A stretch of 61,644 nucleotides of DNA. It comes from Clostridia bacterium (GTDB lineage: Bacteria > Bacillota_A > Clostridia > Christensenellales > Borkfalkiaceae). Below the pieces are notes generated by a model that was given only the letters and a program-made list of their open reading frames with translations, ran no database searches and was not told where the DNA came from. Every line of letters starts with the position of its first letter. The stretch's first letter is position 1. Shown here piece by piece: positions 5,493-33,369 of this stretch. Both the position numbers and the translations under genes were made by a program. Where the stretch lies: NCBI GenBank assembly GCA_017621955.1, contig JAGASB010000266.1, positions 1 to 61,644 of the forward strand, given 5' to 3'.

Positions 5493-6361
5493 TACGCACC
5501 CCCTTTAAGCGTTTTTGTTACGGCTTCAATAAATCCGTTCACGGTTAAATCACTGTCAACTTCAACGCCAACGCTTTTAAGTTTTTGAGTTAAGTGTGCG
5601 GTTAGCGGAAGTTCTAAACCAAGCGCTTCAATCTGCTTATAAGACGAAAAAACTTCTTTTGGCGCACCGACCGAAACTATTTTTCCGTGCGAAAAAATCG
5701 CACAACGTGTGCAATATTCACTGACAATGTTCATATCGTGCGACACTAAAATTACCGTTTTAACAAAACTTTTGTGTAGGTTGTGTAAAAGCGCTAAGAA
5801 CTCTTTTTTACCAACGGGGTCAAGTCCTGCGGCTGGTTCGTCTAAAACCAAAACTTCGGGTTTTGTTACGATAACGCCTGCTATTGCAACCCTACGTTTT
5901 TGACCGCCAGAGAGTTCAAACGGCGATTTTTCTTTTACTTTATTATAGTTTAGTCCTACCGTTTCAAGCGCTTCTTTAACACGAACTTCAATTTGTTCGT
6001 CAGTTAAATCGGGTGCAAAATTTTTCAAGCCGAAAGCAACGTCATCAAACACCGTTTCTGCAAAAAGTTGATATTCGGGATATTGAAAAACCATACCGAT
6101 TTTTGAACGCAACGCCCTAAAATCGCATTTTTTATCGCTTAGGTCATAGTCGCCAACCGTAACCGTTCCCTTGTCCTTACACACTTTAATAAGTCCGTTA
6201 AGGTGCTGAACGAACGTGGTTTTGCCACTGCCTGTCTGACCGATTATACCGAAAAACTCGCCCTCTTCAATGGTTAGGCTTACTCTGTCAAGCGCCTTGA
6301 CAGAAAGCGCTTTTGAACCTTCACTGTAAACGTAGGTTAAATCTTTTGTTTCAATGCGCAT
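5492..6361 (-). CDS. ecfA2: ECF transporter ATPase EcfA2
   Basis: A 289-residue ABC ATPase. Walker A is GQTGSGKTT (about residues 41-49); the Q-loop has VFQYPEYQLFAETV, a signature of EcfA2 rather than EcfA1; the ABC signature is LSGGQKRR; Walker B is VLVLDEP; the H-loop is ILVSHD. The C-terminal segment after about residue 230 is the usual ECF dimerisation extension. It overlaps ecfA1 by 25 bases and touches ecfT, so the three are one translational unit and should form the A1-A2-T complex at the membrane. Confidence 0.94.
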   Translation of the reverse strand: MRIETKDLTYVYSEGSKALSVKALDRVSLTIEEGEFFGIIGQTGSGKTTFVQHLNGLIKVCKDKGTVTVGDYDLSDKKCDFRALRSKIGMVFQYPEYQLFAETVFDDVAFGLKNFAPDLTDEQIEVRVKEALETVGLNYNKVKEKSPFELSGGQKRRVAIAGVIVTKPEVLVLDEPAAGLDPVGKKEFLALLHNLHKSFVKTVILVSHDMNIVSEYCTRCAIFSHGKIVSVGAPKEVFSSYKQIEALGLELPLTAHLTQKLKSVGVEVDSDLTVNGFIEAVTKTLKGGA

Positions 6362-18353: not shown

Positions 18354-18370
18354 ACAAAGGAGAAACATTT

Positions 18371-19228
18371 ATGAAAAAACTATTTGCACTTTTAATCACG
18401 GCTGTGATGACGCTTACCGCTTGCTTTGGTTTGACCGCTTGTTCTAAACCGCTTACTGGTTATGATATTGAACTTGCAAGAAAGGTTGTTTCGTATCTTA
18501 ACGAAGAATATGATACAAATATTGAAATTGAATTTCAAGAAATCGAATGGTCAGCAAAAGAAGCATTGCTTGAAAACGGAACTATCGACCTTGTATGGAA
18601 TGGTATGACAATTACCCCAGAAAGATTATCTGAAATGTGTATTTCTGTTCCTTATCTTTACAACAAACAAGTTGCTGTTGTAAGAGTTGCTGATGAAGAT
18701 AAATTTTCGGGTTCTTCGGTTAATAACTTAATTCAATTTGCAGCTGCTACTATTGGTGCAGAAGCTGGTTCTGCTGGTGAAGATGTAACTAAAACTTTGT
18801 TTGCCCGTAACGAATATATTCCTTCAACAAGTCAATTAGATGCTTTAACTAGCCTTGACAGTGGTAACATAGACGTTGCTATTATCGATTCAGTTATGGC
18901 TGGTTACTACACTTCTAAGGGTGTTTATAAAGATAAACTTGTTGTTGTTGACGGTCTTGTTCTTGCTCAGGAATCTTACGGAATCGCTGCTAAAAAAGGT
19001 AATTTTGCTCTTGTATCGAAAATAAACGAAGCACTTATTGAACTTCGTACAACCGATTATGCTAAGGTTGCTGATGATTTTGGTTTAACCGATTCTATTG
19101 CAATTACTGAAAACACTACTAATCCATTTGCTTTGGCAACTGATTCTAGTTGGGACAATGTTGTTGCTTCTAAAAAGCTTGTTATCGGTTATACTGTATT
19201 TGCGCCTATTGCTTATACAGCAGAATAA
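18371..19228 (+). CDS. amino-acid-type ABC substrate-binding lipoprotein, circularly permuted
   Basis: A 285-residue periplasmic-binding-type protein (SBP_bac_3 family) of a polar amino-acid importer. The signal peptide ends in a lipobox LTAC (Cys24). In normal relatives the mature protein begins with a strand like KLVIGYTVFAPIAY followed by GYDIELA. Here the mature part starts directly with LTGYDIELARKV and the missing strand is at the very C-terminus, WDNVVASKKLVIGYTVFAPI, before the stop. The middle (EIEWSAKEALLENGTIDLVWNGMT, AGSAGED, DVAIIDSVMAGYY) is complete and in normal order. ATG 18371 has GGAGAAAC upstream; the longer frame from 18248 overlaps the promoter. Confidence 0.88.
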   Translation: MKKLFALLITAVMTLTACFGLTACSKPLTGYDIELARKVVSYLNEEYDTNIEIEFQEIEWSAKEALLENGTIDLVWNGMTITPERLSEMCISVPYLYNKQVAVVRVADEDKFSGSSVNNLIQFAAATIGAEAGSAGEDVTKTLFARNEYIPSTSQLDALTSLDSGNIDVAIIDSVMAGYYTSKGVYKDKLVVVDGLVLAQESYGIAAKKGNFALVSKINEALIELRTTDYAKVADDFGLTDSIAITENTTNPFALATDSSWDNVVASKKLVIGYTVFAPIAYTAE

Positions 19229-19244
19229 TTAAAGGATTTTACTA

Positions 19245-19931
19245 ATGTCACAATTCGTTTCTATAATACTCGAATTATTACAAGGGTTCGGCACAACACT
19301 TTTGTTGTTTGCCGTAACCCTTATAGTTTCTTTACCGTTAGGACTATTAATTTCTTTCGGGAGTATGTCAAAATTAAAACCTATAAAACTTTTTTGTAAA
19401 GGACTTATTTGGGTTATAAGGGGCACACCTTTAATGTTGCAAATTTTATTGGTAAGCTTCTTACCAAAATATATTTTTGGTGTGCTTAATAAAGACGTTG
19501 CTTTGTTTTTAGGAATAAGCACTAAATCCTTGCTGTTTATTTTCGTTGCTATTGCCTTTATAATCAACTACGCCTGCTATTTTTCTGAAATTTTCCGTTC
19601 AGGTATAGAATCAATTTCACAAGGTCAATATGAAGCAGGCAAAGTTTTAGGAATGAAAAAATCACAAGTTTTTACTAAAATTGTTTTAATGCAAGTTGTT
19701 AAACGTATTGTTCCGCCTATGAGTAATGAAACTATTACTTTGGTTAAAGATACCGCTCTTGCGCAGATTTTAGGTGTTGTAGACTTGCTTAACGCAGCAA
19801 ACCACGCCGTTAACGAATTTGTTGTTTTAACACCTCTTGTTTATGCTGCAATTTTCTATTTGATATTCAACGGTCTTTTAACACTCCTTTTTGGAAGATT
19901 AGAAAAAAAACTTTCTTATTATAAGGTGTAA
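19245..19931 (+). CDS. amino-acid ABC transporter permease
   Basis: A 228-residue membrane permease of the HisM/GlnP type, with several hydrophobic helices. The amino-terminal half has LELLQGFGTTLLLFAVTLIVSLPLG and RGTPLMLQILLV, characteristic of the HEQ family, and the EAA loop contacting the ATPase is QGQYEAGKVLGMKKSQVF. The end (TLVKDTALAQILGVVDLL) is conserved too. It starts 16 bp after the binding protein and ends two bases before the ATPase start, so the three genes form one operon for import of a polar amino acid or related solute. Confidence 0.93.
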   Translation: MSQFVSIILELLQGFGTTLLLFAVTLIVSLPLGLLISFGSMSKLKPIKLFCKGLIWVIRGTPLMLQILLVSFLPKYIFGVLNKDVALFLGISTKSLLFIFVAIAFIINYACYFSEIFRSGIESISQGQYEAGKVLGMKKSQVFTKIVLMQVVKRIVPPMSNETITLVKDTALAQILGVVDLLNAANHAVNEFVVLTPLVYAAIFYLIFNGLLTLLFGRLEKKLSYYKV

Positions 19932-19932
19932 T

Positions 19933-20787
19933 ATGGCATATTTAACTGTTGAAAATTTTTATAAATCTTTTGGGGAAACCGAAGTTTTAAAAGGAATAGA
20001 CTTTTCACTTAATAAGGGTGAAGTTTTATCTATTATAGGCTCTTCTGGTAGCGGTAAAACAACACTTCTTCGTTGCATCAACTTTTTAGAACAGGCGGAT
20101 AAAGGCACTATGACCGTTGATGGACAAGTGCTTTTCGATGCGCAAGATGATAAAAAAGATAACGATAAGATTTTAAGGGAAAAACGCCTAAACTTTGGGC
20201 TTGTTTTTCAGTCTTTTAACCTTTTCCCGCAATATAACGTGTTAGATAATATTGCGCTTGCACCAAGGCTTTTACTTAAAGATAAAATTAAAAATTATAA
20301 AAAAGAACTTAAAAAACAAAAAGATTTATCAAGAAAAGATATAAGAAACAAAATTGCTGAATTTAAAAAGACTGAACTTGAAAACATTAAAAACGAAAGT
20401 CTAATTCTTCTTGAAAAAATCGGTCTTACTGAAAAAATTAACTCTTATCCTTGTGAACTATCGGGTGGACAATGTCAGCGTGTTGCTATTGCAAGGGCTC
20501 TTGCATTAAAGCCTAAAATTTTGTGCTTTGACGAACCTACTTCGGCACTTGACCCAGAACTAACGGGCGAAGTATTAAAGGTTATCCGTTCACTTAAAGA
20601 CGACGGCAGAACTATGATTATAGTTACTCACGAAATGGCGTTTGCAAAAAACGTTTCGGATAAAGTTATTTTTATGGCTGATGGTGTTATTGAAGAAGCA
20701 GGCAAGGCAAAAGATATTTTTGAAAAGCCAAAGTCGGAAAAACTTATTCACTTTTTATCTTCCGTTTCTAATAAAGACGGTAAATAA
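19933..20787 (+). CDS. amino-acid ABC transporter ATPase with a lysine-rich insert
   Basis: A 284-residue GlnQ/HisP-like ATPase. Walker A is GSSGSGKTT (about residues 36-44), Q-loop VFQSFNLFPQ, signature LSGGQCQRVAIARAL, Walker B ILCFDEPTSALDP, H-loop VTHEM. Relatives are about 240 residues. The extra length is a highly charged stretch of about 35-40 residues (KDKIKNYKKELKKQK...NIKNES) between the Q-loop and the signature motif, probably a helical hairpin on the helical subdomain. It is the last gene of the importer operon and is followed by a terminator. Confidence 0.93.
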   Translation: MAYLTVENFYKSFGETEVLKGIDFSLNKGEVLSIIGSSGSGKTTLLRCINFLEQADKGTMTVDGQVLFDAQDDKKDNDKILREKRLNFGLVFQSFNLFPQYNVLDNIALAPRLLLKDKIKNYKKELKKQKDLSRKDIRNKIAEFKKTELENIKNESLILLEKIGLTEKINSYPCELSGGQCQRVAIARALALKPKILCFDEPTSALDPELTGEVLKVIRSLKDDGRTMIIVTHEMAFAKNVSDKVIFMADGVIEEAGKAKDIFEKPKSEKLIHFLSSVSNKDGK

Positions 20788-20823
20788 TCTAAAAATTATA
20801 TAACGTATTATTAAATTTAAAAC

Positions 20824-20850
20824 AAAAGCACCAAAAAGGTGCTTTTTTAT
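20824..20850 (+). terminator. terminator of the ABC importer operon
   Basis: Stem AAAAGCACC (20824-20832) with GGTGCTTTT (20838-20846), then T run. It also faces the convergent SLOG gene. Confidence 0.85.
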
Positions 20851-20865
20851 TTTTACTATACTTGT

Positions 20866-21336
20866 TTAATATTTTAATACCATTATTCCCTTTTTTACGG
20901 CGTAATCTACGGTTTTTTTAGTTCCACCATAATCACGGGTTAAATAATATAGTACCAAAGAACTTCTATCGACCATATATTTGTTGCGCTTCATCATACA
21001 ATAATTATCGTACTCTATACTGACATAAACTTTTTCATCAGCACAATCAATCATTCTTTCGTATTCTGCTTTTTGAATTTTATTAAACCTATCGGCTTGG
21101 CTTACGCACGGTATACACGCAATGATTTTTATTGGTGTTTTTTCCCTAATCTTTTCAAGCGCCTTAAAACATTCAGTATCAAACCCCAAAGCCATACCAA
21201 CCATAAAGGTATCGTAACCGATATTTACAATTTGTTCTAAACGCTTTTTTAAGCGTTCTTTATCAAAATTATACGGAAGCACTCTATGCCCTGTAACAGC
21301 GCACGTTTTTGCAGGATTTATTAACAGTTCTTTCAC
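20866..21336 (-). CDS. SLOG-family (DUF1273/YpsA-like) protein
   Basis: A 156-residue protein with the start CAVTGHRVLP, the nucleotide-binding loop seen in the YpsA/DUF1273 branch of the SLOG (SMF/DprA-LOG) Rossmann superfamily. Further family-like segments are FMVGMALGFDTECF and KRNKYMVDRSSLVLYYL, which line a presumed ligand pocket. SLOG proteins are thought to bind nucleotide-related ligands; some act in DNA uptake or signalling. Its start overlaps the rsmG stop by four bases, so it is the second gene of an rsmG operon. A second SLOG gene lies at 27332. Exact function unknown. Confidence 0.75.
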   Translation of the reverse strand: MKELLINPAKTCAVTGHRVLPYNFDKERLKKRLEQIVNIGYDTFMVGMALGFDTECFKALEKIREKTPIKIIACIPCVSQADRFNKIQKAEYERMIDCADEKVYVSIEYDNYCMMKRNKYMVDRSSLVLYYLTRDYGGTKKTVDYAVKKGIMVLKY

Positions 21337-22013
21337 AGCGGATTCTTCCTTTCCTTTCCGTTTCCCCTTGGATATTTTTTATCCGTTGGTTTTTCTTTTT
21401 TAATTACTATTAGCGAACGCTTTGCCCCGTCAAGTAAATAATTTTTTACTTCTATTACCTTTCCACCTAAAATTTTAACGGCGTTTTGTGCTTCTAATAC
21501 TTCATCGGTTGAATCGCCCTTATAAGAAACAAATTTTCCACCAACTTTTACAAAGGGCATACAATATTCTAAAAGAGTATTAAGTCTTGCCACTGCTCGT
21601 GCTGAACACAAATCAAAACTTTCCCTATATAACGGGTCTTTTGCTAAAATCTCAGCACGATTGTTGATAACTTCTATATTTTCAAGATTTAACTCTTTTA
21701 TAACAGTTTTTAAAAATTCACACTTCTTTCCCGTGGCTTCAAGCAATGTTACCGACAAGTCGTTTTTCATAATTTTAATAGGTATTGCGGGAAATCCACC
21801 ACCAGAACCAATATCTATCAACTTATTACCAACTAAGTTATCCACACCCAAAACGCTGTCAATAAAGTGTTTTTTAATAACTTCTTCACGCTCAGTTATT
21901 GCGGTTAAGTTAAATTTTGAGTTATAAAAAACAAGTAAATCGTAATATTTTTCAAACGATTCTAATTGTTTATCCGATAACTCTATTCCATACTCTAAAA
22001 AATATTTTTTCAT
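21333..22013 (-). CDS. rsmG: 16S rRNA (guanine527-N7)-methyltransferase RsmG
   Basis: A 226-residue SAM-dependent methyltransferase (GidB) that makes m7G527 in 16S rRNA. The SAM loop is LIDIGSGGGFPAIPI (about residues 64-78), and DLCSARAVARLNTLLEY and GGKFVSYKG are typical of the family. The N-terminus (YGIELSDKQLESFEKYYDLL, NLTAI) also matches. The last 25 residues are basic and lysine/proline-rich, longer than usual. It faces away from dnaN across the AT-rich gap. rsmG near the origin is normal in Firmicutes, though mnmG is elsewhere in this window. Confidence 0.96.
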   Translation of the reverse strand: MKKYFLEYGIELSDKQLESFEKYYDLLVFYNSKFNLTAITEREEVIKKHFIDSVLGVDNLVGNKLIDIGSGGGFPAIPIKIMKNDLSVTLLEATGKKCEFLKTVIKELNLENIEVINNRAEILAKDPLYRESFDLCSARAVARLNTLLEYCMPFVKVGGKFVSYKGDSTDEVLEAQNAVKILGGKVIEVKNYLLDGAKRSLIVIKKEKPTDKKYPRGNGKERKNPL

Positions 22014-22489
22014 ATATATAGTATAACATATAAATCGTTAATTAACAAATAAATTATTTATCAACTTTTCATTTTGTTAAAAAGTTTATAACTTAATTTT
22101 TTTCTTTACTTTTATCAAAAATAAATTTTTTTTTCTTAATTTTTTAATCAGTTTAATTTTTTTTATCTACTTATAAAAAACTTGTCCACTTTTACTCAAC
22201 AATTAATCAACAATGATTTTGACCATTAAAATGCTAACATTTTTCACCTTTTCCACATTTACACATCACTCTATTATTAATACGACTTTTTTTTAAATTT
22301 TAAATAATAAAAATAACATATCTATAACCACGCAAGCGACGATGCGTTTTAATTTAAATATATATTTAAATAAAATTACTAATAAAGATAAAAATTCTTG
22401 ATTTTTTTCTTCATTTCGTATATAATACAAACAGTTGATTTTTTGATATTTTTTTATAAAAGGTAATTTTTAGTTTTGGAGAAGTATTT
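22014..22489. other. candidate replication origin region (oriC) between rsmG and dnaN
   Basis: A 476-bp gap with no gene, very AT-rich with several T runs. Between about 22055 and 22265 there are same-strand sequences resembling the DnaA box TTATCCACA: TTATCAACT, TTATCAAAA, TTATCTACT, TTGTCCACT, TAATCAACA and TTTTCCACA (one mismatch for the last, two for the others). The flanking genes diverge (rsmG left, dnaN right), as expected if replication starts here. dnaA is not adjacent (32 kb). None of the boxes is a perfect match, so this is a candidate only. Confidence 0.45.
22398..22426 (+). promoter_or_regulatory. promoter of dnaN
   Basis: TTGATT (22398-22403), 17-base spacer, TATAAT (22421-22426). 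Confidence 0.75.
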
Positions 22490-23590
22490 ATGAAACTTAT
22501 TTGCGACGGTCTTGATTTATCTGATGCAGTGTTAAAGGTATCGAAAGCGTTATCAGTTAAAGCTGCAAATCCCGTTCTTGAAGGGATAAAGATTACGGCA
22601 AAGGGCGATTCGCTTACCCTTCTTGCTACCGATATGGAACTAACCATTGAAAAGAAGATTAAAGCTGACGTTTTAATGGAAGGTGAAACTGTCGTTGTAG
22701 GTAAATATTTCGTTGATTTTGTTAAAAAGCTTGAAAAAGAACAAATTGAACTTTGTAGGCTTTTTGACGGTGGACTTCAAATTAAGTACGCTGATTCTGA
22801 ATCAGAACTTCAAGTATTTCCTGCTGAAAACTTCCCAAAAATTGAAAAGGATATTGATGGAAGTTACTTTGAAATTTCACAAGCGGATTTTAAGGAAGTT
22901 GTTGAAAAATCAGCATTTGCTTGTTCTATCGACGACAGTAGACCGATACTTAAAGGTTGCTTATTTGAAATTCAAAACAACGAATTAACTTCGGTTGCTC
23001 TCGACGGGTTTAGAATGGCTGTTGTAAAAAAGAATATTTCAGCAAGTTCTGATATTAAAGCAGTTATTCCGTCAAGGGCACTTTCTGAAATAACAAGGCT
23101 TCTTGATAAAGACGAAAATACCGTTAAAGTATATTTACAGAAAAATTCACTCTTTGTTGAAGTGGAAAATACCTGTTTAATCAGTAGACTTATTGAGGGT
23201 GAATTCGTTAAATATAATCATATTCTTCCAAATTCTTTTGAAAATAAGGTTACGGTTAATCGCCAAGCATTACTCAGCAGTATTGAAAGAGCGTCAATCG
23301 TTGCAAGGAACGATAGATATAACGTAGTCAAGTTTGATATTAAAGAAGAAGTTATGACAATTTCTGCTAAATCCGAAGTAGGTAACGTAAACGAAAACGT
23401 GAATGTTATACTTACCGGAAAGGATATTCAAATAGCGTTTAACGGCAAATATTTAGCAGAATATTTAAAAATAGTAAACGATGAGTTTATTGAACTAAAC
23501 TTAAATACGCCTATCGACCCGTGTATAATTACAGCCGTTGGAAACCAAGGATTTTTATATTTAGTGCTTCCGGTAAGAATAAACGCTTAA
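22490..23590 (+). CDS. dnaN: DNA polymerase III beta subunit (sliding clamp)
   Basis: A 366-residue beta clamp that tethers polymerase III and other repair factors to DNA. Three homologous domains of about 120 residues follow in order; typical segments are AANPVLEGIKITAKGDSLTLLATDMELTI at the start, SIDDSRPILKGCLFEI, ALDGFRMAVVKK in the second domain and the last residues YLVLPVRI, which form the protein-binding cleft. GGAG lies eight bases before the ATG. It is separated from dnaA and recF by about 8-9 kb here, instead of the usual dnaA-dnaN-recF order. Confidence 0.97.
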   Translation: MKLICDGLDLSDAVLKVSKALSVKAANPVLEGIKITAKGDSLTLLATDMELTIEKKIKADVLMEGETVVVGKYFVDFVKKLEKEQIELCRLFDGGLQIKYADSESELQVFPAENFPKIEKDIDGSYFEISQADFKEVVEKSAFACSIDDSRPILKGCLFEIQNNELTSVALDGFRMAVVKKNISASSDIKAVIPSRALSEITRLLDKDENTVKVYLQKNSLFVEVENTCLISRLIEGEFVKYNHILPNSFENKVTVNRQALLSSIERASIVARNDRYNVVKFDIKEEVMTISAKSEVGNVNENVNVILTGKDIQIAFNGKYLAEYLKIVNDEFIELNLNTPIDPCIITAVGNQGFLYLVLPVRINA

Positions 23591-23673
23591 TTTAATTGAC
23601 AAAATTAAAAAATATCTATACAATATATAAACGCAAAAAGAAAAAAATATCTTGCAAATAGGAGACATATAAA

Positions 23674-23808
23674 ATGAAACAGACTTATCAACCCAAGAAA
23701 AGACAAACTAGCAAAGTTCACGGATTTAGAAAGAGAATGAAGACCCGTTCAGGAAAGAACGTTTTAAAAAGACGTCGTAACAAAGGTCGTCATAAACTCT
23801 CTGCTTAA
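23674..23808 (+). CDS. rpmH: 50S ribosomal protein L34
   Basis: A 44-codon gene read directly: it begins [11 protein letters not shown] and contains the L34 hallmark [13 protein letters not shown] and [13 protein letters not shown] at the end. GGAGA lies upstream. L34 is a short, arginine- and lysine-rich component of the large subunit. It lies six bases before rnpA, the universal bacterial arrangement, and downstream of dnaN on the same strand. Confidence 0.97.
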
Positions 23809-23814
23809 TTTAGT

Positions 23815-24141
23815 ATGACCTTTGATTATAGGTTAAAAAAAGAAAAAGATTTCAATCTGGTTTTTAATAAAGGTAAAAGATTGTTTACACGGAATTTGAC
23901 GGTTGTATTTTTTCCGTCAAATTCTTTAAAAGCCGGTTTTGCCGTTAGCAAAAAGCACGGCAAAAGTGTGCAGAGAAATAGGATTAAACGTCTTTTAAGG
24001 GAATCTTTCAGAAGTTTTATGCCGGAATTCCGTCAAAACTTCTTTTTTGTTTTTATACCGAAAGTAACAGAAGAATATACGCTAAACGCATTTAAAGAGA
24101 GTATGGGTTTTCTTTTTAAAAAGGGCGGATTTATAGACTGA
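23815..24141 (+). CDS. rnpA: ribonuclease P protein component
   Basis: A 108-residue basic protein that binds the RNase P RNA (rnpB, found here at 36707-37061) to process the 5' ends of pre-tRNAs. The start [18 protein letters not shown] and the signature [17 protein letters not shown] (about residues 50-66) with the RNR motif are family marks. It sits between rpmH (six bases) and yidD (ATG overlaps its stop), so translation is probably coupled. Confidence 0.96.
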
Positions 24142-24374
24142 TGTTAAAGTTTTTAAGTATTAAACTTATAAGGTTTTATCAAAAATATTTATCGAAAGGA
24201 ACTTGTATGTATTTTCCTACTTGTTCTCAGTACATGATTGAAGCAATTTTAAAACACGGCTTTTTTGTCGGGTCTTTTTTGGGTATAAAAAGGATTTTAC
24301 GCTGTCACCCTTGGTGTAAAGGTGGGTTTGACAAAGTGCCTGATAAAAAAAGCGTAGTTAAGTGGGTATATTAA
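24141..24374 (+). CDS. yidD: membrane protein insertion efficiency factor YidD
   Basis: A 77-residue protein with the YidD pattern: an N-terminal amphipathic helix ([12 protein letters not shown]), then [20 protein letters not shown] and [20 protein letters not shown]. The cysteines in CSQY and CHPW contexts are conserved. YidD assists YidC-dependent membrane protein insertion. Its start overlaps the rnpA stop and it ends one base before the yidC start, the standard rnpA-yidD-yidC arrangement. Confidence 0.96.
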
Positions 24375-24375
24375 T

Positions 24376-26043
24376 ATGGAATTAGGAATTATCAATTTTA
24401 CACCGCCGTCAGTTGCGGGTGACTTTTTTGCTAGTATTATTTATTGGCTTGTTGGAATTGTTGGTGTCGTTGGTGGAATAGTTTTATTTACTTTATTACT
24501 AAAACTTGTAACTTTCCCCTTTGATTACGTTTCAAGAGCGTCAATGCGTAAAAATTCAGTTAAAATGGAAGAAATGCGTCCCGAACTTGAAAAGTTACAA
24601 AAACAATACGCTGATAATAAAGACTTATATAACCAAAAAATGATGGCGCTTTATAAAAAGAACGGCTATTCTATGTTCGGTGCTTGTTTACCGACCATTA
24701 TCACGCTTGTTATCTTTATTATTGCACTCAATGGTTTCCAAGCATATTCACAATTCCAAAATAAACAATATTTTTATGATATGAGCGTTGCTTATAACAG
24801 TGTTGTTTATGATGGTTTTGAAAGCGATAATACTTATATTATTGAAAAAGACGGTAAACTTGTATTTAATTATGACCAAATTATCGCTAACGGCGAAGGT
24901 ACTGACAAAAGTATAGAAAATACTAACATAAAATATACTTTCACTACCGAAACTGACGAAGATAATAAAAAGACTGGTAAACTTACTGTTTCAACTGACG
25001 GATACGTTAAAATGGTAAATACTTGTACCTTTAACGGCGAAACAGTTATTTGGAACAATACCCCTAACTTTTATTTAATCGACGGCGCAGATTTAAGCAG
25101 TTTAACTATTGTTAGAACTGAAAACGGTAAAGAAGTAAAATATGCGGTTGCCGAAGAAAAAACGGCTGAAATTTTATATAACGAAAGAGTTCAAAAGTAC
25201 GTTGCTAATAATATTGATGCAGAATATAAAAATTATAAAGAAACCGCTGGCGACAGTGCAAAATCAAAAGAAGAATATAAAGTTGACCTTGCAAACGCTT
25301 ATAAGGCTGACGTAAAAACTTCTTATGAAACTTTCAAATCACAAGAATACAAAAAGGCGTTCGTTGAAGACGTTCAGCAACAAAGGTCTGCCGATAAGTA
25401 TAGAAGTACTGAAAAATCTTTCCTTTGGGTTAAAAACGTTTGGGTTGCCGATAAATCAACCGACCACCCCGTTCACTCTTCTTGGGAAGCATTTACAAGT
25501 GCTTACGGTCAAAGTGAAAACAATATAGGTGAAATAGCATATAATAATTTAACTGCTAAACTTGACGCTGAAAAGAATGCACCTAACGGATACTTTATCC
25601 TTGTAATTTTAACCGCTGGTTCTTCACTTTTAATGCAAATTATTATGGGTAAGAGCCAAAAAGCGCAAATGGAACTTCAAACGGTTGACGGACAAGGCGC
25701 TCAAACCCAAAAGATAATGAAATGGATGATGCCGATTATGATGGCAATATTTGCCTTTATGTATACGGCGGCGTTCTCAATCTATATCGTGCTAAGTTCT
25801 ATAATTAGTATGTTGACAACTTTCCTTATAAACTTTATTGTTGACAGAAAACTTAAAAAGAATAAAGCAGTAACCGAAACAGGACGTATTCACGGCAGAG
25901 TTTATACCCCTAAACAAGAAGAAATCGCTCAGCCCAAAAAACAAGAAAAGAAAAAGAAAGACGACAAGTTTGCTCACGCAACGGGTGAAGATTTCCTTTC
26001 GGGTAAAGCGGACAAAAAGCACGTTCGTGGAAGAATTAAGTAA
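24376..26043 (+). CDS. yidC: membrane protein insertase YidC with a large extracytoplasmic insert
   Basis: A 555-residue Oxa1/YidC/Alb3 insertase. The five-helix core is recognisable: FTLLLKLVTFPFDYVSRASM (with the groove arginine), the coiled cytoplasmic hairpin KMEEMRPELEKLQKQYAD, LPTIITLVIFIIALNGF, FLWVKNVWVADKS, and MKWMMPIMMAIFAFMYTAAF. A stretch of about 215 residues (roughly 130-345) of hydrophilic sequence is inserted between the second helix and the FLWVKNVW segment, on the outer face. Gram-positive YidC proteins are normally about 260-300 residues and lack this; the Gram-negative P1 domain sits elsewhere, before the core. The C-tail is basic, as in YidC proteins that bind ribosomes. 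Follows yidD directly. Confidence 0.93.
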   Translation: MELGIINFTPPSVAGDFFASIIYWLVGIVGVVGGIVLFTLLLKLVTFPFDYVSRASMRKNSVKMEEMRPELEKLQKQYADNKDLYNQKMMALYKKNGYSMFGACLPTIITLVIFIIALNGFQAYSQFQNKQYFYDMSVAYNSVVYDGFESDNTYIIEKDGKLVFNYDQIIANGEGTDKSIENTNIKYTFTTETDEDNKKTGKLTVSTDGYVKMVNTCTFNGETVIWNNTPNFYLIDGADLSSLTIVRTENGKEVKYAVAEEKTAEILYNERVQKYVANNIDAEYKNYKETAGDSAKSKEEYKVDLANAYKADVKTSYETFKSQEYKKAFVEDVQQQRSADKYRSTEKSFLWVKNVWVADKSTDHPVHSSWEAFTSAYGQSENNIGEIAYNNLTAKLDAEKNAPNGYFILVILTAGSSLLMQIIMGKSQKAQMELQTVDGQGAQTQKIMKWMMPIMMAIFAFMYTAAFSIYIVLSSIISMLTTFLINFIVDRKLKKNKAVTETGRIHGRVYTPKQEEIAQPKKQEKKKKDDKFAHATGEDFLSGKADKKHVRGRIK

Positions 26044-26078
26044 ATAATTTATGCGCAGTGGCGCACGGAGGAATAAAA

Positions 26079-26894
26079 ATGCAATTTACAGGTAAGATGG
26101 TGGAAGAAGCTAAGTCAATCGGACTTAAAGAGCTTAATATCACCGAAGAAGAGGCGAAAATCACAGTTATTGAAGAGCCGGTTAAGGGGCTTTTTGGTAG
26201 ACTAAAAGGCAAAGCAGTTGTTGAAATCGAAATTATTAAAAAAGAAAATGACGAACAAAGGGCGCTAAACTTTGTACAAGGCATTATTGACATTATGGAA
26301 TTAAACGCTACGACCGAACTTTCTGAAAAGGACGGCAGTACGGTTATAACCTTAGTTTCAAACGATTCTTCAAGCGTTATCGGATACCGTGGTGAAATTC
26401 TTGACGCAATTCAAGTGCTTGCAGGCGCTGCAATGAACATCGGCAATAAAGAATACAAAAAAGTTGTAGTTGACTGTGAAAATTATAGAACTAAACGTGA
26501 AGAAACACTCATTAAACTTGCTAAAAAACTTGAAGAAAAAGCAACTGAAATGAGACGTGAAGTTATGCTTGAACCGATGAGTCCGTATGAAAGAAGAATT
26601 ATTCATACTGCCCTATCAAGTAGTGAAACGGTAACGACAAAATCTGACGGCAAAGAACCTAACCGTTACGTTGTAATCGTTCCTAACGATAAGGACGAAT
26701 TTGCTAAACCCTATAACGCAGGCAGAAATCATTCTGACCGTGGCGGAAAAAAAGACGGTGGAAGAAAAGGCGGAAACCGTGGCTCATTTAAGGGCGGACG
26801 TGGTGGCAGAAGAGATAACAAATCTTCTAGCGGAGCAAAGAAAAAAACCACCATTAGTTTTGGCACTTACTTAGGAAACAGCCTTAAAGACTAA
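26079..26894 (+). CDS. jag: RNA-binding protein Jag/KhpB
   Basis: A 271-residue cytoplasmic RNA-binding protein. ATG 26079 is used because GGAGG precedes it; an in-frame GTG at 26058 has no such site. Domains in order: Jag_N (about 1-52, FTGKMVEEAKSIGLKEL), a KH domain with VIGYRGEILDAIQVLAG, and R3H with EPMSPYERRIIHTAL and SDGKEPNRYVVI. The tail (about 215-270) is glycine, arginine and lysine rich. KhpB works with KhpA and small RNAs, and in clostridia and streptococci affects cell elongation. It is the normal neighbour of yidC. Confidence 0.95.
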   Translation: MQFTGKMVEEAKSIGLKELNITEEEAKITVIEEPVKGLFGRLKGKAVVEIEIIKKENDEQRALNFVQGIIDIMELNATTELSEKDGSTVITLVSNDSSSVIGYRGEILDAIQVLAGAAMNIGNKEYKKVVVDCENYRTKREETLIKLAKKLEEKATEMRREVMLEPMSPYERRIIHTALSSSETVTTKSDGKEPNRYVVIVPNDKDEFAKPYNAGRNHSDRGGKKDGGRKGGNRGSFKGGRGGRRDNKSSSGAKKKTTISFGTYLGNSLKD

Positions 26895-26913
26895 TACCAA
26901 AAAATAATAAAGA

Positions 26914-26948
26914 AAAAATCAGATTCCTTTCGGAGTCTGATTTTTTTT
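26914..26948. terminator. terminator after jag
   Basis: Long stem (26914-26926 with 26931-26945, one or two mismatches) and a T run. It separates jag from the convergent XRE gene. Confidence 0.85.
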
Positions 26949-27180
26949 AATCTTCAAAATCATTAAAATAATCTTTATCGAAAAATTGCGATAACGTTAT
27001 GTTAGCACCTTGACAAAACGCTTTAATTGTTGATACTTTGGAGCATTTTGTTCTTCCTTTAATTAAATCGTAAATTGCTGATGGCGATTTACCACCGTTT
27101 AGTGCCGTTTCACATACGTTTATTTTCTTTTCTTTGCAAATTTCTTCTATTCTTTTTATTATTGCTTCATTAATATTCAT
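26947..27180 (-). CDS. small XRE-type helix-turn-helix repressor
   Basis: A 77-residue DNA-binding protein (start at 27180, MNINEAIIK, preceded by AAGGTGAAC). The HTH core is CETALNGGKSPSAIYDLIKGR and KVSTIKAFCQGANITLSQFF, typical of Cro/C1-type repressors. It is divergent from the SLOG gene, and three related palindromes lie between and over both starts, which suggests autoregulation plus control of the SLOG gene. A longer frame from 27264 would begin inside an operator and is unlikely. Confidence 0.78.
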   Translation of the reverse strand: MNINEAIIKRIEEICKEKKINVCETALNGGKSPSAIYDLIKGRTKCSKVSTIKAFCQGANITLSQFFDKDYFNDFED

Positions 27181-27190
27181 ACGTTCACCT

Positions 27191-27317
27191 TCGTGGAATT
27201 CCATATAGGTATTCCACGAAAATATTATATGAATTATTTTATTTATTATCTCGTGGAGTTCCACGATATTGACAAAAGGTGATTAATGCTGATATAATTA
27301 TTTACGGAATTCCACGA
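27191..27317. promoter_or_regulatory. three operator palindromes controlling the XRE/SLOG pair
   Basis: Three related inverted repeats: TCGTGGAAT...ATTCCACGA (27191-27219, arms nine bases, spacer 11); TCGTGGAGTTCCACGA (27251-27266, perfect but for the central two bases); and a partial copy GGAATTCCACGA (27306-27317). The first lies over the XRE ribosome site, the second abuts the -35 of the SLOG promoter, the third covers its 5' leader. Consensus half-site TCGTGGAA. Confidence 0.8.
27269..27298 (+). promoter_or_regulatory. promoter of the 27332 SLOG gene
   Basis: TTGACA (27269-27274), 18-base spacer, TATAAT (27293-27298), directly after the second operator. Confidence 0.8.
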
Positions 27318-27331
27318 AAAAAAGGATTTTT

Positions 27332-27805
27332 ATGAAAGTTTGTTTTATAGGGCATAGAAAAGTTGAAGATAAAGAAAATCTTTTATTATTGTTAAATGAT
27401 ACTGTTGTATCACTCTTAAAAAAAGGTGTTACAACGTTTTTATTTGGGAGTAAAAGTGAGTTCGATGACTTATGTTGGCAAGTTGTTACTAAGTTAAAAA
27501 AAGAATTTCCTTATATAAAAAGAATATACGTTAGGTCAGCCTTTCAAGTGATTGATAAAGATTATGAAGATTATTTATTAAAATCTTATGAGCAGACGTA
27601 CTTTCCGCCCAAAATTGAAAAGGCAGGTAAATTTTCTTACGTTGAACGTAACTATGAAATGATTGATAATTCTACTTATTGTGTATTTTACTATAATGAA
27701 AACTATTCACCACAACCTGTAAAGAATTTAAAAAAGAATAAAATTTTATCAGTAAAGCGTAATAGCGGAACAAAAATTGCTTATGAGTACGCTATGAAAA
27801 GATAA
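27332..27805 (+). CDS. SLOG-family protein under XRE control
   Basis: A 157-residue protein starting VCFIGHRKVED, the GHR nucleotide-binding loop of the DUF1273-like SLOG group. A second supporting segment is TTFLFGSKSEFDDLCWQVV and near the end YVERNYEMIDNSTYCVFYYNE, matching the pattern KNxxMVDxS seen in the 20866 paralogue (KRNKYMVDRSSLVLYY). AAAGGA precedes the ATG. The base composition is lower in G+C than the neighbours, and the module sits between jag and the ZIP gene where mnmE would often be, so it may be a late insertion. Ligand and role unknown; a link to phage or mobile-element signalling is inference. Confidence 0.7.
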   Translation: MKVCFIGHRKVEDKENLLLLLNDTVVSLLKKGVTTFLFGSKSEFDDLCWQVVTKLKKEFPYIKRIYVRSAFQVIDKDYEDYLLKSYEQTYFPPKIEKAGKFSYVERNYEMIDNSTYCVFYYNENYSPQPVKNLKKNKILSVKRNSGTKIAYEYAMKR

Positions 27806-27930
27806 AAGCAAATTATAAATTTATATAAAAGTAAGTTGTCATAGAAATTTTTAGAAAGTTTGACATATTCTATTGATTTTAAATTTAAATATATGTTACA
27901 ATCATAAAAAGGAAAATTTCGGGAATAATT

Positions 27931-28692
27931 ATGTTGACGGTATTAATGACGGCGCTTGGCGTTGGCGGTGCAACTGTTATCGGCGCTTGTATTGGGTTTA
28001 TTTTTAAGAAAGTTTCGCATAGGTTTAGCGATATAGTTTTATCTTTTGCGGCAGGCGTTATGCTTGCTGCCGCTGTGCTTGGTCTTATTATTCCCTCAAT
28101 CGAATACGGCGGAAGCAATTTGACCGCAGTGTTAATAACTGTTTTAAGTATTTTTCTTGGTGCAGTATGCTTAAACTTTATTGATAAACTTGTTCCCCAC
28201 TTACATAAACTTGCAGGCGGAGATATTGAAAAACATAAGGAAAACGTTAAACTAAATAAAATACTTTTATTTGTTATGGCTATTGCCATACATAACCTAC
28301 CCGAAGGCATTGCGGCAGGCGTTGGGTTTGGTTCGGGCAATACCACGGGTGCATTTATTATTGCAGGCGGTATTGCACTTCAAAATATCCCCGAAGGTAT
28401 GGTTATAATCGGACCTATGCTATCTGCGGGGCTATCAAAAAAGCGCACCTTTATCTATGCAATGATAACGGGACTTGTTGAAGTTTTAGGCACGTTTATT
28501 GGATATTTTGCAGTATCAATTGCATCGGCAGTTTTGCCTTTTGCCCTTGCTTTTGCAGGCGGAACAATGCTTTACGTTATAAGTGATGAAATGATTCCCG
28601 AAACTCATCTGCACGGCAGTCAGCGTGGCGCAACTTATGCGTTGCTTGTAGGTTTTTGCTTGATGCTTGCAGTCGACGTACTTTTAGGATAG
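27931..28692 (+). CDS. ZIP-family metal transporter
   Basis: A 253-residue integral membrane protein with about eight helices. The metal-binding helix motifs are AIHNLPEGIAAGVGFG and IALQNIPEGMVIIG, which define ZIP transporters of zinc and related divalent metals; a histidine-rich loop is small (HLHKLAGG). The C-terminal helix contains SDEMIPETH. It takes up Zn2+, Fe2+ or Mn2+ from outside; which metal cannot be told. A TTGATT-18-TACAAT promoter is possible upstream near 27870-27900. The FTR-like gene follows 11 bases later. Confidence 0.88.
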   Translation: MLTVLMTALGVGGATVIGACIGFIFKKVSHRFSDIVLSFAAGVMLAAAVLGLIIPSIEYGGSNLTAVLITVLSIFLGAVCLNFIDKLVPHLHKLAGGDIEKHKENVKLNKILLFVMAIAIHNLPEGIAAGVGFGSGNTTGAFIIAGGIALQNIPEGMVIIGPMLSAGLSKKRTFIYAMITGLVEVLGTFIGYFAVSIASAVLPFALAFAGGTMLYVISDEMIPETHLHGSQRGATYALLVGFCLMLAVDVLLG

Positions 28693-28703
28693 GAGAAAAT
28701 ATT

Positions 28704-28901
28704 ATGAAAATTACGCTTAACCCTGATAAAGAAGTAGTTAAGACTATTAAAGAAGGCTTAAAAAGAACGGGTGGATATTGCCCGTGTAGATTAAGCAGAA
28801 CGGAAGAATATAAGTGTATGTGCGAAGAATTTAAACAGCAAATTGCAGACCCTGAATTTGAGGGGTTTTGCCATTGCTTGTTATATTATAAACAAAAATA
28901 A
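28704..28901 (+). CDS. ferredoxin:thioredoxin reductase-like catalytic protein
   Basis: A 65-residue protein; ATG 28704 has AGGAGA upstream. It has three CxC motifs: CPC (26-28), CMC (38-40) and CHC (56-58). Ferredoxin:thioredoxin reductase catalytic subunits carry the CPC...CPC...CHC pattern holding a [4Fe-4S] cluster beside a redox disulphide (the last CPC and CHC Cys). The spacing here (9 and 15 residues between motifs) differs from plant enzymes (16 and 8), and the protein is shorter, as in some anaerobe proteins annotated FtrB-like. The next gene is thioredoxin, supporting electron flow from ferredoxin to thioredoxin. Confidence 0.7.
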   Translation: MKITLNPDKEVVKTIKEGLKRTGGYCPCRLSRTEEYKCMCEEFKQQIADPEFEGFCHCLLYYKQK

Positions 28902-28915
28902 AAGGAGCAATAAAA

Positions 28916-29230
28916 ATGGAAGTAATATTGACCAAAGAAAATTTTGAAAACGAAGTTATTAAAAGCGATATCCCCGTAATCGTTGATTTTTGGGCGACGT
29001 GGTGCGGACCGTGCAAAATGATTGCACCTGTTTTAGAAGAAATCGCAAAAGAGTACGACGGCAAAGTTAAAGTTGCAAAAGCCAACGTTGACGATGAGAT
29101 GCAACTTGCCCTTGAATACAAAGTGGAAGTTATCCCCACCCTATTCTTCTTTAAGGACGGAAAGGCAGTTAAAAAGACTGTTGGCGTTCAAACCAAGCAA
29201 GAAATTTTACAAACGGTATTCAGTTTGTAA
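28916..29230 (+). CDS. trxA: thioredoxin
   Basis: A 104-residue thioredoxin with the active site WATWCGPCKM (Cys at about residues 30 and 33), the cis-proline region VEVIPTLFFFKDGK, and the normal fold length. It reduces protein disulphides in the cytoplasm. The adjacent FTR-like gene (gap 14 bases, RBS AAGGAG) suggests that it is reduced by ferredoxin rather than by an NADPH flavoprotein; no trxB is seen nearby. A terminator follows. Confidence 0.94.
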   Translation: MEVILTKENFENEVIKSDIPVIVDFWATWCGPCKMIAPVLEEIAKEYDGKVKVAKANVDDEMQLALEYKVEVIPTLFFFKDGKAVKKTVGVQTKQEILQTVFSL

Positions 29231-29234
29231 GCAA

Positions 29235-29263
29235 AAAAGACTAAACAAAACGTTTAGTCTTTT
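29235..29263. terminator. terminator after thioredoxin
   Basis: Perfect 12-bp stem (29235-29246 with 29252-29263), loop of five, ending in T's; shared with the convergent HNH gene. Confidence 0.85.
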
Positions 29264-29271
29264 CTAATGTA

Positions 29272-30099
29272 TTAATAATTATCACTTTTATTTTTATTAC
29301 ATGTACTACAAAGAGTTTGTAAATTGTCATAAGTACTTTTTCCACCCTTTGCAATGGGTTTGATGTGGTCTATTTCTAAATTTTCAAATTTATCACTACG
29401 CCCACAAAATCTGCATCTATACCCATCTCTCTTATAAATTGAGAAGCGCATTTTGTTTGAAACCTTGCCTCTTTCAACACGACAAATAGCGTCCCAAATG
29501 CCCCTATCATTATAGAAAGTACCATTTTTGTCATTTAACCTGTCAATAAGCAAAGAAATATGTTCTAAGGAAAAAGTTTGATGTTTTCGCATATAAATAG
29601 AGCCGTTAATTTTTGAACAATATAAATGAACAGGAATATTAAAATTTATTATAGGTTTTAATATATTTTTATCAAACAAGGCTTTTTCTTTTGATATTAG
29701 TCTATGTATATTTAACTTATTATTTGGTTGAATAAAATTACCGAACTGTTTAAGAGTAGATAATCTTTTACAATAGGAATTGTATTTAATTCTATTTGAG
29801 CAAACAAAGTTTATTTGTTCTACAATTTTATATTTTTTAAACTGTAATTGATATATTAAATAATCTTCACAAGAAATATTATTATAAAAATTTTTATTAT
29901 CGTAAGTGTGTTGTTCATTAAAATAATCAATTTTCGTGTAGAATTTATACTCTTTATTTAAATTAAATAGATTATTGAGAGCAATACTATTTTTCAGAAT
30001 ATACTGTAAATATTTCTTGTTGATAGTATAAAAAAAATAACTTATAAATGCGGTACAAAAAGCAATTATTAAACAAATACAAGTAATTAGAAGTTCCAT
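29272..30099 (-). CDS. membrane-anchored HNH endonuclease
   Basis: A 275-residue protein. Start at 30099 (MELLITC) after AAGGATAAG; an in-frame TTG at 30120 is weaker. One membrane helix covers about residues 2-28 with the remainder inside. The middle (about 40-215) matches nothing I recognise. The C-terminus is a complete HNH domain: RFSIYKRDGYRCRFCGR, LEIDHIKPIAKGG, DNLQTLCSTCNKNK, with two CxxC zinc knuckles and the catalytic histidine in DHI. Membrane tethering of an HNH nuclease is unusual. It lies alone, low in G+C, between thioredoxin and pgsA. A role in foreign-DNA defence or in cell-surface DNA degradation is inference only. Confidence 0.75.
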   Translation of the reverse strand: MELLITCICLIIAFCTAFISYFFYTINKKYLQYILKNSIALNNLFNLNKEYKFYTKIDYFNEQHTYDNKNFYNNISCEDYLIYQLQFKKYKIVEQINFVCSNRIKYNSYCKRLSTLKQFGNFIQPNNKLNIHRLISKEKALFDKNILKPIINFNIPVHLYCSKINGSIYMRKHQTFSLEHISLLIDRLNDKNGTFYNDRGIWDAICRVERGKVSNKMRFSIYKRDGYRCRFCGRSDKFENLEIDHIKPIAKGGKSTYDNLQTLCSTCNKNKSDNY

Positions 30100-30158
30100 T
30101 TTTTTTCTTATCCTTACCAAATTTTACATTTTAACAAAAGTTATAATTAAACTAAAAA

Positions 30159-30190
30159 GAATTGAAAAAATATAAATTTCAATTCCTTTT
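30159..30190 (-). terminator. terminator after pgsA
   Basis: GAATTGAAA (30159-30167) with TTTCAATTC (30177-30185); the minus-strand transcript then has a T run. Confidence 0.6.
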
Positions 30191-30193
30191 CTA

Positions 30194-30763
30194 TTAACTA
30201 TTAAAAAACTTTTTATAAAACATTCCGTATAGAACGGTGGATATTACTACAAATACAACACACAAGCCGATTAATATGTATGCAACGAATTCGGGGAAAA
30301 GTATTATCGGGCGTAAAAATAGAACGAATAGCGATAGATAGATAAAGAGCGAACATAACTTTCCGAACCATTTTGAACTGTTGACCTTTTCCCTTTCGTG
30401 AAAGGCTTTTAGCCCCCACTTTAAAAGTAACAGTTCTTTTACCGCCATAAGCACGACAAGCCCAACGACCACAAGATACTGCGGAATAAGACAGCAAATA
30501 AGCGCCGCTTGCGTTAGTTTATCTGCAATGGGGTCGACAAGTTTGCCGAAATCGGTTACCATATGAAACTTTCTTGCAATAAAGCCGTCAAGCACGTCCG
30601 TAAAGCCTGATGCAATAACCAAAATTGCAGCGGTTACGGGCAATGAAAGTGACAAGTAGCACACGACGATTATCGGTATCATTAAAATTCTTATGTAGCT
30701 TAATATGTTCGGCAAAGAGAAAATCTGCCCTGCCGTAAGCCTTTTTCTATAACGTTCGTCCAT
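30194..30763 (-). CDS. pgsA: CDP-diacylglycerol-glycerol-3-phosphate 3-phosphatidyltransferase
   Basis: A 189-residue integral membrane enzyme of phosphatidylglycerol synthesis, transferring the phosphatidyl group from CDP-diacylglycerol to glycerol 3-phosphate. The CDP-alcohol phosphotransferase motif DVLDGFIARKF...FGKLVDPIADK is intact with all four aspartates. The N-terminus SLPNILSYIRILMIP is also characteristic, and about five membrane helices are visible. In the same direction recF lies 50 bp upstream, so the two may be transcribed together. Confidence 0.93.
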   Translation of the reverse strand: MDERYRKRLTAGQIFSLPNILSYIRILMIPIIVVCYLSLSLPVTAAILVIASGFTDVLDGFIARKFHMVTDFGKLVDPIADKLTQAALICCLIPQYLVVVGLVVLMAVKELLLLKWGLKAFHEREKVNSSKWFGKLCSLFIYLSLFVLFLRPIILFPEFVAYILIGLCVVFVVISTVLYGMFYKKFFNS

Positions 30764-30812
30764 AATTACCTAATATAAAGTATAGCACATAAAATCGCTT
30801 TTGTCAAAAGGG

Positions 30813-31910
30813 TTATTTGCCCTTTTTAATTTTGCCGTTTTCTATTATTATACGGTTATAATTTTTATCCTTAAACACCGTGCGGTCAAGCCCCGTTGCA
30901 GTGAACACCGTTTGAATATGTTCTACGGCTGAAATTAATTTTCTTTGACGCTTTTTGTCAAGTTCACTCAGCACGTCGTCTAAAATTAGTATAGGATATT
31001 CGTTAAAACGGTTATAAAATATTTCCGCTTCGGCAAGTTTAAGAGAGAGTGCAACCGTTCGCTGTTGACCTTGTGAGCCGAACACCCTAACGTCATCGCC
31101 GTTTAGGGTGAATTTAACGTCGTCACGGTGCGGACCGATTGTGGTAAAGCCAAGGCGCATATCACGTTCTAAGCCTAATTTAAGGTCTTCTTTTAGGGCG
31201 TAAGCAATTTCTTCTTCCGTGCCGAAATAACCGCTTTCGGTTTTCATTTTAAGCGTTTCTTTGCCGTCTGATAAAAGTGCGTGCTTTTGCTCTGCAATGG
31301 GTGATAATTCTTTAAGCAAATCGTTCCTTGCTTTAATTATCTTGCCTGCTTCTTTTGCTAGCTGAGTGTCCCAAATAGGCAAAGTTTCACGGATAATATA
31401 AGAATCGGGGTCTTTAAGAAGATTGTTTCTTTGCGATAAAATTTTATTGTAGCGTTGGAGAGCGTAAAAATAGGCTTTGGACATTTGCGATAGTGAAATG
31501 TTCATAAACCTACGCCTATCTTCCGGACTTTCTTGGACAAGTTTAAGTTCGGACGGGTTGAAAAACACGCTGTTTATGTTGCCCATAAGTTCGCCGATTT
31601 TTAGAACTTGAAGTTCGTTGATATAAATACTCTTTTTATCCGATTTATTAAACTCTATTTTAACCGATACGTCGCCGTAGCGTGAAACTGCAACGCCTTT
31701 AATCTCAGCGCTGTCTTTATCGTGTTTTACCACGAGTTTATCACGGTTGGCACGAGGCGAATAACCCGTGCAGAGATAAAATATCGCTTCTGCCGCATTG
31801 GTTTTGCCCTGAGCGTTTGCACCCGTTAAAATATTTATTCCGCCATTAAAAGTAAATTCTTCTTCAACGTAGTTACGGAAATTTTTTAAGAATAATTGCT
31901 TAATATACAT
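30813..31910 (-). CDS. recF: DNA replication and repair protein RecF
   Basis: A 365-residue SMC-like ATPase that loads RecA at single-strand gaps and DNA ends. Walker A is GANAQGKTN (about residues 29-37), the signature motif GSQGQQRTVALSLKLAE, and Walker B ILILDDVLSELD. The N-terminus YIKQLFLKNFRNY is family-typical. It diverges from dnaA by only 105 bp and is not beside dnaN, which is 8 kb away. The shared intergenic space is AT-rich with a TATAAT-like sequence near 31970. Confidence 0.95.
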   Translation of the reverse strand: MYIKQLFLKNFRNYVEEEFTFNGGINILTGANAQGKTNAAEAIFYLCTGYSPRANRDKLVVKHDKDSAEIKGVAVSRYGDVSVKIEFNKSDKKSIYINELQVLKIGELMGNINSVFFNPSELKLVQESPEDRRRFMNISLSQMSKAYFYALQRYNKILSQRNNLLKDPDSYIIRETLPIWDTQLAKEAGKIIKARNDLLKELSPIAEQKHALLSDGKETLKMKTESGYFGTEEEIAYALKEDLKLGLERDMRLGFTTIGPHRDDVKFTLNGDDVRVFGSQGQQRTVALSLKLAEAEIFYNRFNEYPILILDDVLSELDKKRQRKLISAVEHIQTVFTATGLDRTVFKDKNYNRIIIENGKIKKGK

Positions 31911-32018
31911 CTTATTTTTAAAATTTTTAAAATAGTCAGCCGAAAAACTTTATTTTATTTTTAAAATATTATATAATGTTTTTTACTTAAAAGCAACTGA
32001 TAAAGAGGATTTGTTTTG

Positions 32019-33365: not shown

Positions 33366-33369
33366 CTAT

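Follow-up and report, generated by a model that had tools for sequence, protein, structure and literature searches.

A circularly permuted lipoprotein of a putative polar-amino-acid importer in a Clostridia bacterium, from a family whose chain ends appear to have moved repeatedly

In this work, we focus on one gene of contig JAGASB010000266.1 (assembly GCA_017621955.1), a stretch of 61,644 nucleotides from a Clostridia bacterium which, at its full length, will be called the window. The gene encodes a lipoprotein of the substrate-binding protein family SBP_bac_3 in which the parts of the domain follow each other in a cyclically shifted order. It opens with an ATG at 18371 and closes with a stop codon at 19226-19228, in agreement with the first-pass annotation of the locus. 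The order of the parts is described with three hidden Markov models (HMMs), one for each of the pieces A (the former N-terminal strand), B (up to GSAGE) and C (the rest), and with a ring HMM, a doubled model of a 253-position unit which gives the start and the end of each protein on the ring. Proteins with the usual ends are termed T0, and the window protein belongs to the first of four permuted types, T1 to T4. The features of the gene are the following:

18371..19228, + strand: circularly permuted SBP_bac_3 lipoprotein of order B-C-A (type T1), 285 amino acids (from sequence, piece HMMs, ring HMM and model)
18356..18362, + strand: AAAGGAG, resembling a ribosome-binding site, 8 bases 5' of the ATG (sequence reading)
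18371..18442, + strand: signal peptide and lipobox (…LTAC24), residues 1-24, with Cys24 as the expected lipidation site (sequence)
18452..18781, + strand: piece B, residues 28-137, with the second hairpin strand, the putative lobe I core, the hinge and, as far as GSAGE, what is probably the beginning of lobe II (piece HMM, ring HMM)
18782..19120, + strand: piece C, residues 138-250, with what is probably the remainder of lobe II and the return to lobe I, the C-terminal helices and the start of the linker (piece HMM and ring HMM)
19091..19150, + strand: linker between the two original chain ends, residues 241-260 (sequence; model)
19151..19225, + strand: piece A, residues 261-285, helix and first beta strand of the original N-terminus, WDNVVASKKLVIGYTVFAPIAYTAE, now C-terminal (sequence, 3hv1 alignment, piece HMM)

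It had been proposed that the lipobox of this protein is followed at once by the second strand of the domain, while the first strand is the last element before the stop codon, and the open reading frame (ORF), the Pfam match and the alignment to 3hv1 all agree with this. The segment LTGYDIELARKV (residues 28-39) starts immediately after the lipobox, piece B beginning three residues past it, and WDNVVASKKLVIGYTVFAPIAY (residues 261-282) lies near the C-terminus. Pfam SBP_bac_3 (PF00497) matches residues 26-235 (E 1.2e-20, 74.1 bits against a gathering score of 26.4), but the match enters at profile position 19, and the earlier profile positions are unmatched at the N-terminus. The best sequence matches in the Protein Data Bank are the binding proteins 3hv1 and 4ohn, two Streptococcus SBP_bac_3 binders of polar amino acids in which the order is usual and the first strand N-terminal, whereas in the window protein this strand is found at residues 269-274 (the usual order being typical of SBP_bac_3 and not required by the profile). 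In a rotated order, the N-terminal part of 3hv1 aligns to residues 254-283 (weakly when taken alone, 0.3 bits) and its remainder to residues 29-235. The ring HMM gives the same rotated order, as the window protein runs from ring position 26 to 277, while T0 relatives run in the usual order on the same model. Among 40 aligned T1 proteins, C24 is invariant, as are seven residues of the C-terminal segment (I272, G273, Y274, T275, F277, A278 and P279). The first strand has thus genuinely moved to the end of the chain, a permutation for which conserved relatives, the match to homologues of normal order and a confidently predicted model all speak.

In this AlphaFold2 model, the window protein adopts the bilobed fold of the SBP_bac_3 class with a predicted local distance difference test score (pLDDT) of 91.8. 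The moved C-terminal segment scores 98, 92 and 84 going towards its end, and piece A is predicted to form a helix (260-267) and two strands (269-274 and 281-283), preceded by a linker that is mostly coil (pLDDT 95-98). The best matches in the fold searches, which were sequential, include the GlnPQ-type structures 4la9, 4kpt, 4kr5 and 6h30; no sugar binder such as MglB appeared among the rows shown, which is no proof of absence. Pfam likewise finds only PF00497 at E <= 0.001, and nothing of the Type I / Cluster B sugar-binding fold. The names of 3hv1 and 4ohn, the latter solved with histidine, suggest by analogy a polar amino acid as the class of ligand.

The window protein is far from alone. 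At E <= 1e-10, the protein search gave 5826 matches, and among the 120 of them listed, 45 have the order B-C-A (the window's own protein included), 74 the order C-A-B and one, P0061, the order C-A-B-C-A. At the genomic level, we considered the main gene of 68 genome-contig loci and of the window: C-A-B was found in 51, B-C-A in 13 (window included), A-B-C in L004, C-A-B-C in L018, and B-C alone, with A undetected, in L064-L066, which the ring HMM assigns to the usual order. The weaker SBP_bac_3 paralogues of the same genomes (L091-L098, 22-72 bits) are all in the usual order as far as they are matched (8/8). In the survey of the class (n=20), L069 is T1, L189-L193 are T2 and L194-L207 have the usual order, eight of these last having been set to it by hand from an undecided or T3 call, owing to an N-terminal overhang.

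Besides the usual ends, the ring HMM reveals four recurrent break sites, each defining a circular permutation. In T1, the chain is cut at about ring position 24, in the hairpin turn after the first strand. The T2 break lies at about 132-140, past the GSAGE segment, and the T3 break at about 175-184, past SVMAGYY or a similar motif (L018, L104, L105, L107, L150 and L157, with L133 as a distant member broken at 170-173), so that T2 and T3 proteins open at the edge of piece C or within it. The T4 break is at the hinge, somewhere from about 106 to 120 (L165, L166, L168 and L169); this type came initially from two genomes and later from two more, and possible further matches in G375 and G404 were not used. 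Two other candidates for T4 proved to be T2 genes cut by a contig end, namely L037 and L191, the latter left unused. Starts scatter more than ends on the ring because the HMM extends into signal peptides.

The downstream neighbours of the gene are shared by all arrangements. As expected of an SBP_bac_3 operon, a permease gene and an ATPase gene of an ATP-binding cassette (ABC) importer follow in the window:

19245..19931, + strand: ABC permease (BPD_transp_1), same operon (Pfam 2e-18)
19933..20787, + strand: ABC ATPase, same operon (Pfam 6.2e-33)

Relatives of both lie downstream in 35/35 T1 and 10/10 T3 rows, in counts which include repeated loci of one genome. The same holds for 87/90 T2 rows (two more reach the permease before the sequence ends and one has no room), for 19/21 T0 rows (the remaining pair being two copies of L004, which leave 184 bases downstream) and for 2/2 true T4 rows of this count, once the cut T2 gene L037 is set aside. 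An intact N-terminal strand at this locus in relatives had been named as a finding that would speak against a permutation; T0 relatives do exist in the same operon, but they only show that the arrangement varies. The relatives of the window protein come mostly from Clostridia metagenome-assembled genomes (MAGs), many of them from animal guts; the window, too, probably belongs to a gut bacterium. With usual-order relatives included, and at the cut-offs used, matches occur in 70/201 genomes of the family of genome G001, in 39/396 of its order (T2 query), in 59/391 of its class and in 31/46 of the family of a T4 genome.

Some loci carry an additional binding-protein gene. Directly upstream of the T2 gene, L030 has a diverged second gene which is itself T2-like (5304-6273, + strand; ring 150 to 138, 56 bits), and L025 a weakly similar ORF of usual order (4779-5718, + strand; 24 bits). 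L103 and L138 also carry an L025-like upstream ORF and appear to be the same place as L025.

To place the arrangements on trees, all proteins were rotated back to one order. From 413 ring matches, 15 were excluded (<100 bits or <190 residues), and 157 rows remained after removal of near-copies; 59 of these were not taken into a 98-row tree, from which a 104-row tree was derived by dropping 10 rows and adding 16, among them more T0 and T4 relatives. For the latter, nine loci with an N-terminal overhang (L188, L194, L195, L197-L199, L203, L204 and L207) were assigned to T0 manually, of which five are in the tree. A first tree, with 15 changes of arrangement, still included P0061 and L037, both absent from the later ones. 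In the 98-row tree (IQ-TREE, mixture model), the arrangement changes at least 13 times, against a mean of 41.3 after shuffling; the 104-row tree has 13 changes against 50.6, and a tree on 161 columns, without break-adjacent and linker positions, has 17 against 50.7. The arrangement is strongly clustered on the tree.

A direction of these changes can be read from the nesting of the types, by parsimony only. In the 104-row tree, the T1 clade of the window (11 rows, support 100/97) lies inside a 56-row set (100/99) made of 36 T2, 14 T1, five T3 and one T0. Apart from it, L002 (T1) groups with the T2 proteins P0073, P0110 and P0074 (100/90), P0042 and P0043 (T1) group with three other T2 rows (89/83), and further T1 rows fall outside the main T2 group. 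T4 is found in two places, L165 with two T0 rows (100/96) and L166, L168 and L169 elsewhere (100/98), and so is T3, with L133 among T0 rows (97/91) and five rows in the T2 part (84/87). Forcing all 26 T1 rows into a single clade costs 213.7 log-likelihood units, and forcing the 14 nested ones costs 102.8; a single clade of L002, P0042 and P0043 costs 44.8 and is weakly rejected (p 0.022), the p-values of these tests being too small since the groups were picked after inspection of the tree. A tree of the permease only (13 changes) pairs the window with L001, another T1 (96), and puts L002 and L003 together with seven T2 rows in a set of nine (96). Most simply, T1 would have arisen several times, and because the clade of the window is nested among T2 genes, its nearest precursor was probably T2 and not the usual order. 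The permutation that the first-pass annotation recognized is real, but its starting point probably differs, and the call was understated: the window protein is one member of a family with repeatedly moved ends.

One gene deserves a separate mention. L004 (3762-4548, + strand) is T0 but stands inside the T2 part, in a 56-row set in the 98-row tree (100/97) and in a 51-row set in the 104-row tree (81/93); a return to the usual order is possible.

The route to such permutations would be a duplication, an end-to-end fusion of the two copies and a trimming, and the junctions of some recent T1 proteins may reflect it. The B-C junction of P0042, GSAGETVIKGEDENATALLVGKEY, resembles T2 tails like GSAGETVIVGEEE followed by heads like ..SDLKVGKEY, and that of P0045, GSAGESVIDKLDVGKEYVVAPSQ, resembles the P0073 tail GSAGESVIKD followed by the head ..GKDKLNVGKEYVVAPSQ. 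An old C-terminal tail and an old N-terminal head can be read at the junctions of P0042, P0043 and P0045, in each case by eye and with no statistic, and such a succession of T2 tail and T2 head is what a fusion of two T2 copies would leave. At the junction of the window protein itself, this signature is not clearly visible. The W..I motif shared by the linkers was considered as a sign of one ancestral fusion and dropped, because a similar motif stands at the N-terminus of T0 proteins, L164 and L115 among them.

Altogether, we consider that the window encodes a working, lipid-anchored, T1-permuted binding protein for polar amino acids, from a family whose ends have moved repeatedly among four loops while the permease and the ATPase stayed fixed, and we give this reading a probability of roughly 0.82. 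The protein would correspond to the binding protein of a polar-amino-acid ABC importer, cut at the hairpin turn that follows beta strand one, with its old ends bridged by the linker of about 20 residues, and the displaced strand would fold back to its usual place in lobe I. Judging from the fold, the conserved residues and the operon, it probably binds a polar amino acid between its two lobes and passes it on to the permease, in the way thought for usual-order relatives. The relocation would concern the chain ends and the lipid anchor alone, binding and transport being unchanged.

Several observations weigh against this interpretation. The first-pass annotation had proposed to see in a model whether the C-terminal strand fills the edge of lobe I; the model is confident and does contain C-terminal strands, but their packing is judged from pLDDT and secondary structure, not from coordinates, and the VIA fold alignments omit the C-terminal strand (model range 23-246), so they do not test where it packs. 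One of five T1 models has a pLDDT of only 74.8. Two full domains occur in no fetched ORF, with no tandem-fused or half-trimmed intermediate, and none of the 120 matches listed of 1972 for P0061 exceeds 442 residues. A concatenated permease-ATPase tree (17 changes) separates the window from L001 and places other rows differently as well, for example T1 L118 and L120 with T2 L011; as it disagrees with the binding-protein tree, the operon seems partly mosaic or exchanged. Finally, change counts alone cannot separate gain from loss, and the direction of the nesting holds only by parsimony.

Regarding the cause of the moves, our first choice is that, given an upstream signal peptide and lipobox, the ends would drift almost neutrally among tolerant surface loops. 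Our second choice, which we hold to be rather unlikely, is that the moves were selected: the lipid anchor would sit on lobe I in T0 and T1 and on lobe II in T2 to T4, and a move from one to the other would alter the seating of the protein on the membrane and its docking to the permease. The heads between the Cys and the core are indeed short (about 3 to 10 residues in the proteins printed), so the anchor point should matter, and the part of PMC4990184 considered here raises anchoring as a possible reason for its own permuted protein; drift among tolerated loops, however, fits the pattern equally well. A bolder and tentative view, which we hold to be less likely than not, is that in this one orthologous operon gene the position of the chain ends evolves freely, hopping among the four loops on a time scale of roughly 20% protein divergence, perhaps driven by selection on where the anchor holds the protein relative to the permease.

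The repeated origin of T1 could also be mimicked if T1 and T2 each had a single old origin and later recombination between them had swapped pieces. Exchanges do appear, at least in assemblies. P0061 (442 amino acids), with its C-A-B-C-A order, was a candidate for a duplication intermediate, but its residues 1-290 are 86% identical to T2 P0121 and its residues 169-442 are 83% identical to T1 P0122 (94.7% over the last 152), with a switch point, placed by eye, in the conserved WNGMTI stretch; we therefore treat it as a T2/T1 chimera, possibly an assembly product. The partly mosaic operon points in the same direction, as does piece B of L002, which is equally close to T2 P0110 and T1 P0043 (79% each). 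Nevertheless, a crossover between differing orders should yield repeats or losses of pieces and not a clean T1 gene. L002 is 100% identical to T2 P0110 and P0073 over window residues 150-180, 86% to T2 P0074 over 190-240 and 92% to T2 P0053 in piece A, against 64-75% by piece to the window protein, and when L002, P0042 and P0043 are compared with each other set aside, T2 rows come out best or tied best in every piece. The linked permease, too, puts L002 and L003 with T2, and T3 and T4 each occur in two distant parts of the tree. Recombination as the whole explanation is thus improbable.

A programmed, reversible DNA rearrangement that switches the order within a population would account for the same few breaks recurring, but it is very improbable: a single strong family member was found in each of the 16/16 genomes examined, chosen through their loci, and the order clusters on the tree. 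Equally far-fetched is a dying, functionless duplicate, given the permease and ATPase downstream of every T1 row, the invariant residues and the confident model. The least probable of all is the main alternative named at first, an assembly deletion or collapse in a tandem duplicate, which is very unlikely because 44 of the 119 other proteins listed share the order of the window, as do 12 T1 loci from several MAG projects, and the C-terminal segment is conserved.

Beyond the operon, the window probably contains a replication origin region (20800-33400). The GC skew changes sign near 22-24 kb, and we find ORFs which we take to be rsmG-like (21333-22013, -), dnaN-like (22490-23590, +), yidC-like (24376-26043, +), jag-like (26058-26894, +), recF-like (30813-31910, -) and dnaA-like (32016-33365, +), the last starting about 8.4 kb after the dnaN-like ORF. 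DnaA-box-like sites are not enriched over the window (8 found against 10.6 expected). Two short similar-looking ORFs of this region (20866-21336, - and 27332-27805, +) are presumably SLOG-like.

The natural circular permutations known so far mostly concern pairs of distant relatives that parted long ago, and the permuted DNA methyltransferases are intracellular enzymes. Here, one gene with constant neighbours exists in five orders, some of them little diverged. This allows a direct study of the route by which a protein is permuted, of how fast this happens and at what cost, including the questions of which loops tolerate new ends, how a junction looks shortly after it forms, and whether the place of the anchor influences transport. 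The family is in this sense a natural experiment in protein rewiring. A search that presupposes one order captures such proteins incompletely; Foldseek, for instance, aligned a T2 model to the full-length relatives 3hv1, 4ohn and 4zv1 over 83-101 columns only. A literature search, with most subscription papers and bioRxiv preprints outside its scope, turned up neither a description of permuted SBP_bac_3 proteins nor one of a binding-protein family permuted repeatedly.

Three known systems help to situate the family. The domains SBD1-SBD2 of GlnPQ have the same fold as the window protein and show that a tandem fusion, the first step of permutation by duplication, is possible, but they are complete and in the usual order, and the tandem form was not found among the fetched ORFs of the present family. 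The permuted DNA methyltransferases are natural permutations with documented duplication intermediates, according to the part considered here of a review that covers permutation by duplication (PMC3320104). Compared with them, the window family concerns a transport protein that is anchored and whose operon is fixed, with no intermediates found. The third system is TpMglB-2 (Tp0684) of Treponema, a circularly permuted glucose-binding protein for which the consulted portion of PMC4990184 proposes a 'Type Ic / Cluster Bc' and whose topology it terms hitherto unknown for such proteins. Like the window protein, TpMglB-2 is, as described there, a natural, lipid-anchored, permuted binder that serves an ABC importer and has relatives among Gram-positive bacteria of the gut; it belongs, however, to the Type I / Cluster B class, with one permutation described in that portion, whereas the window protein belongs to SBP_bac_3 and to a family with four.
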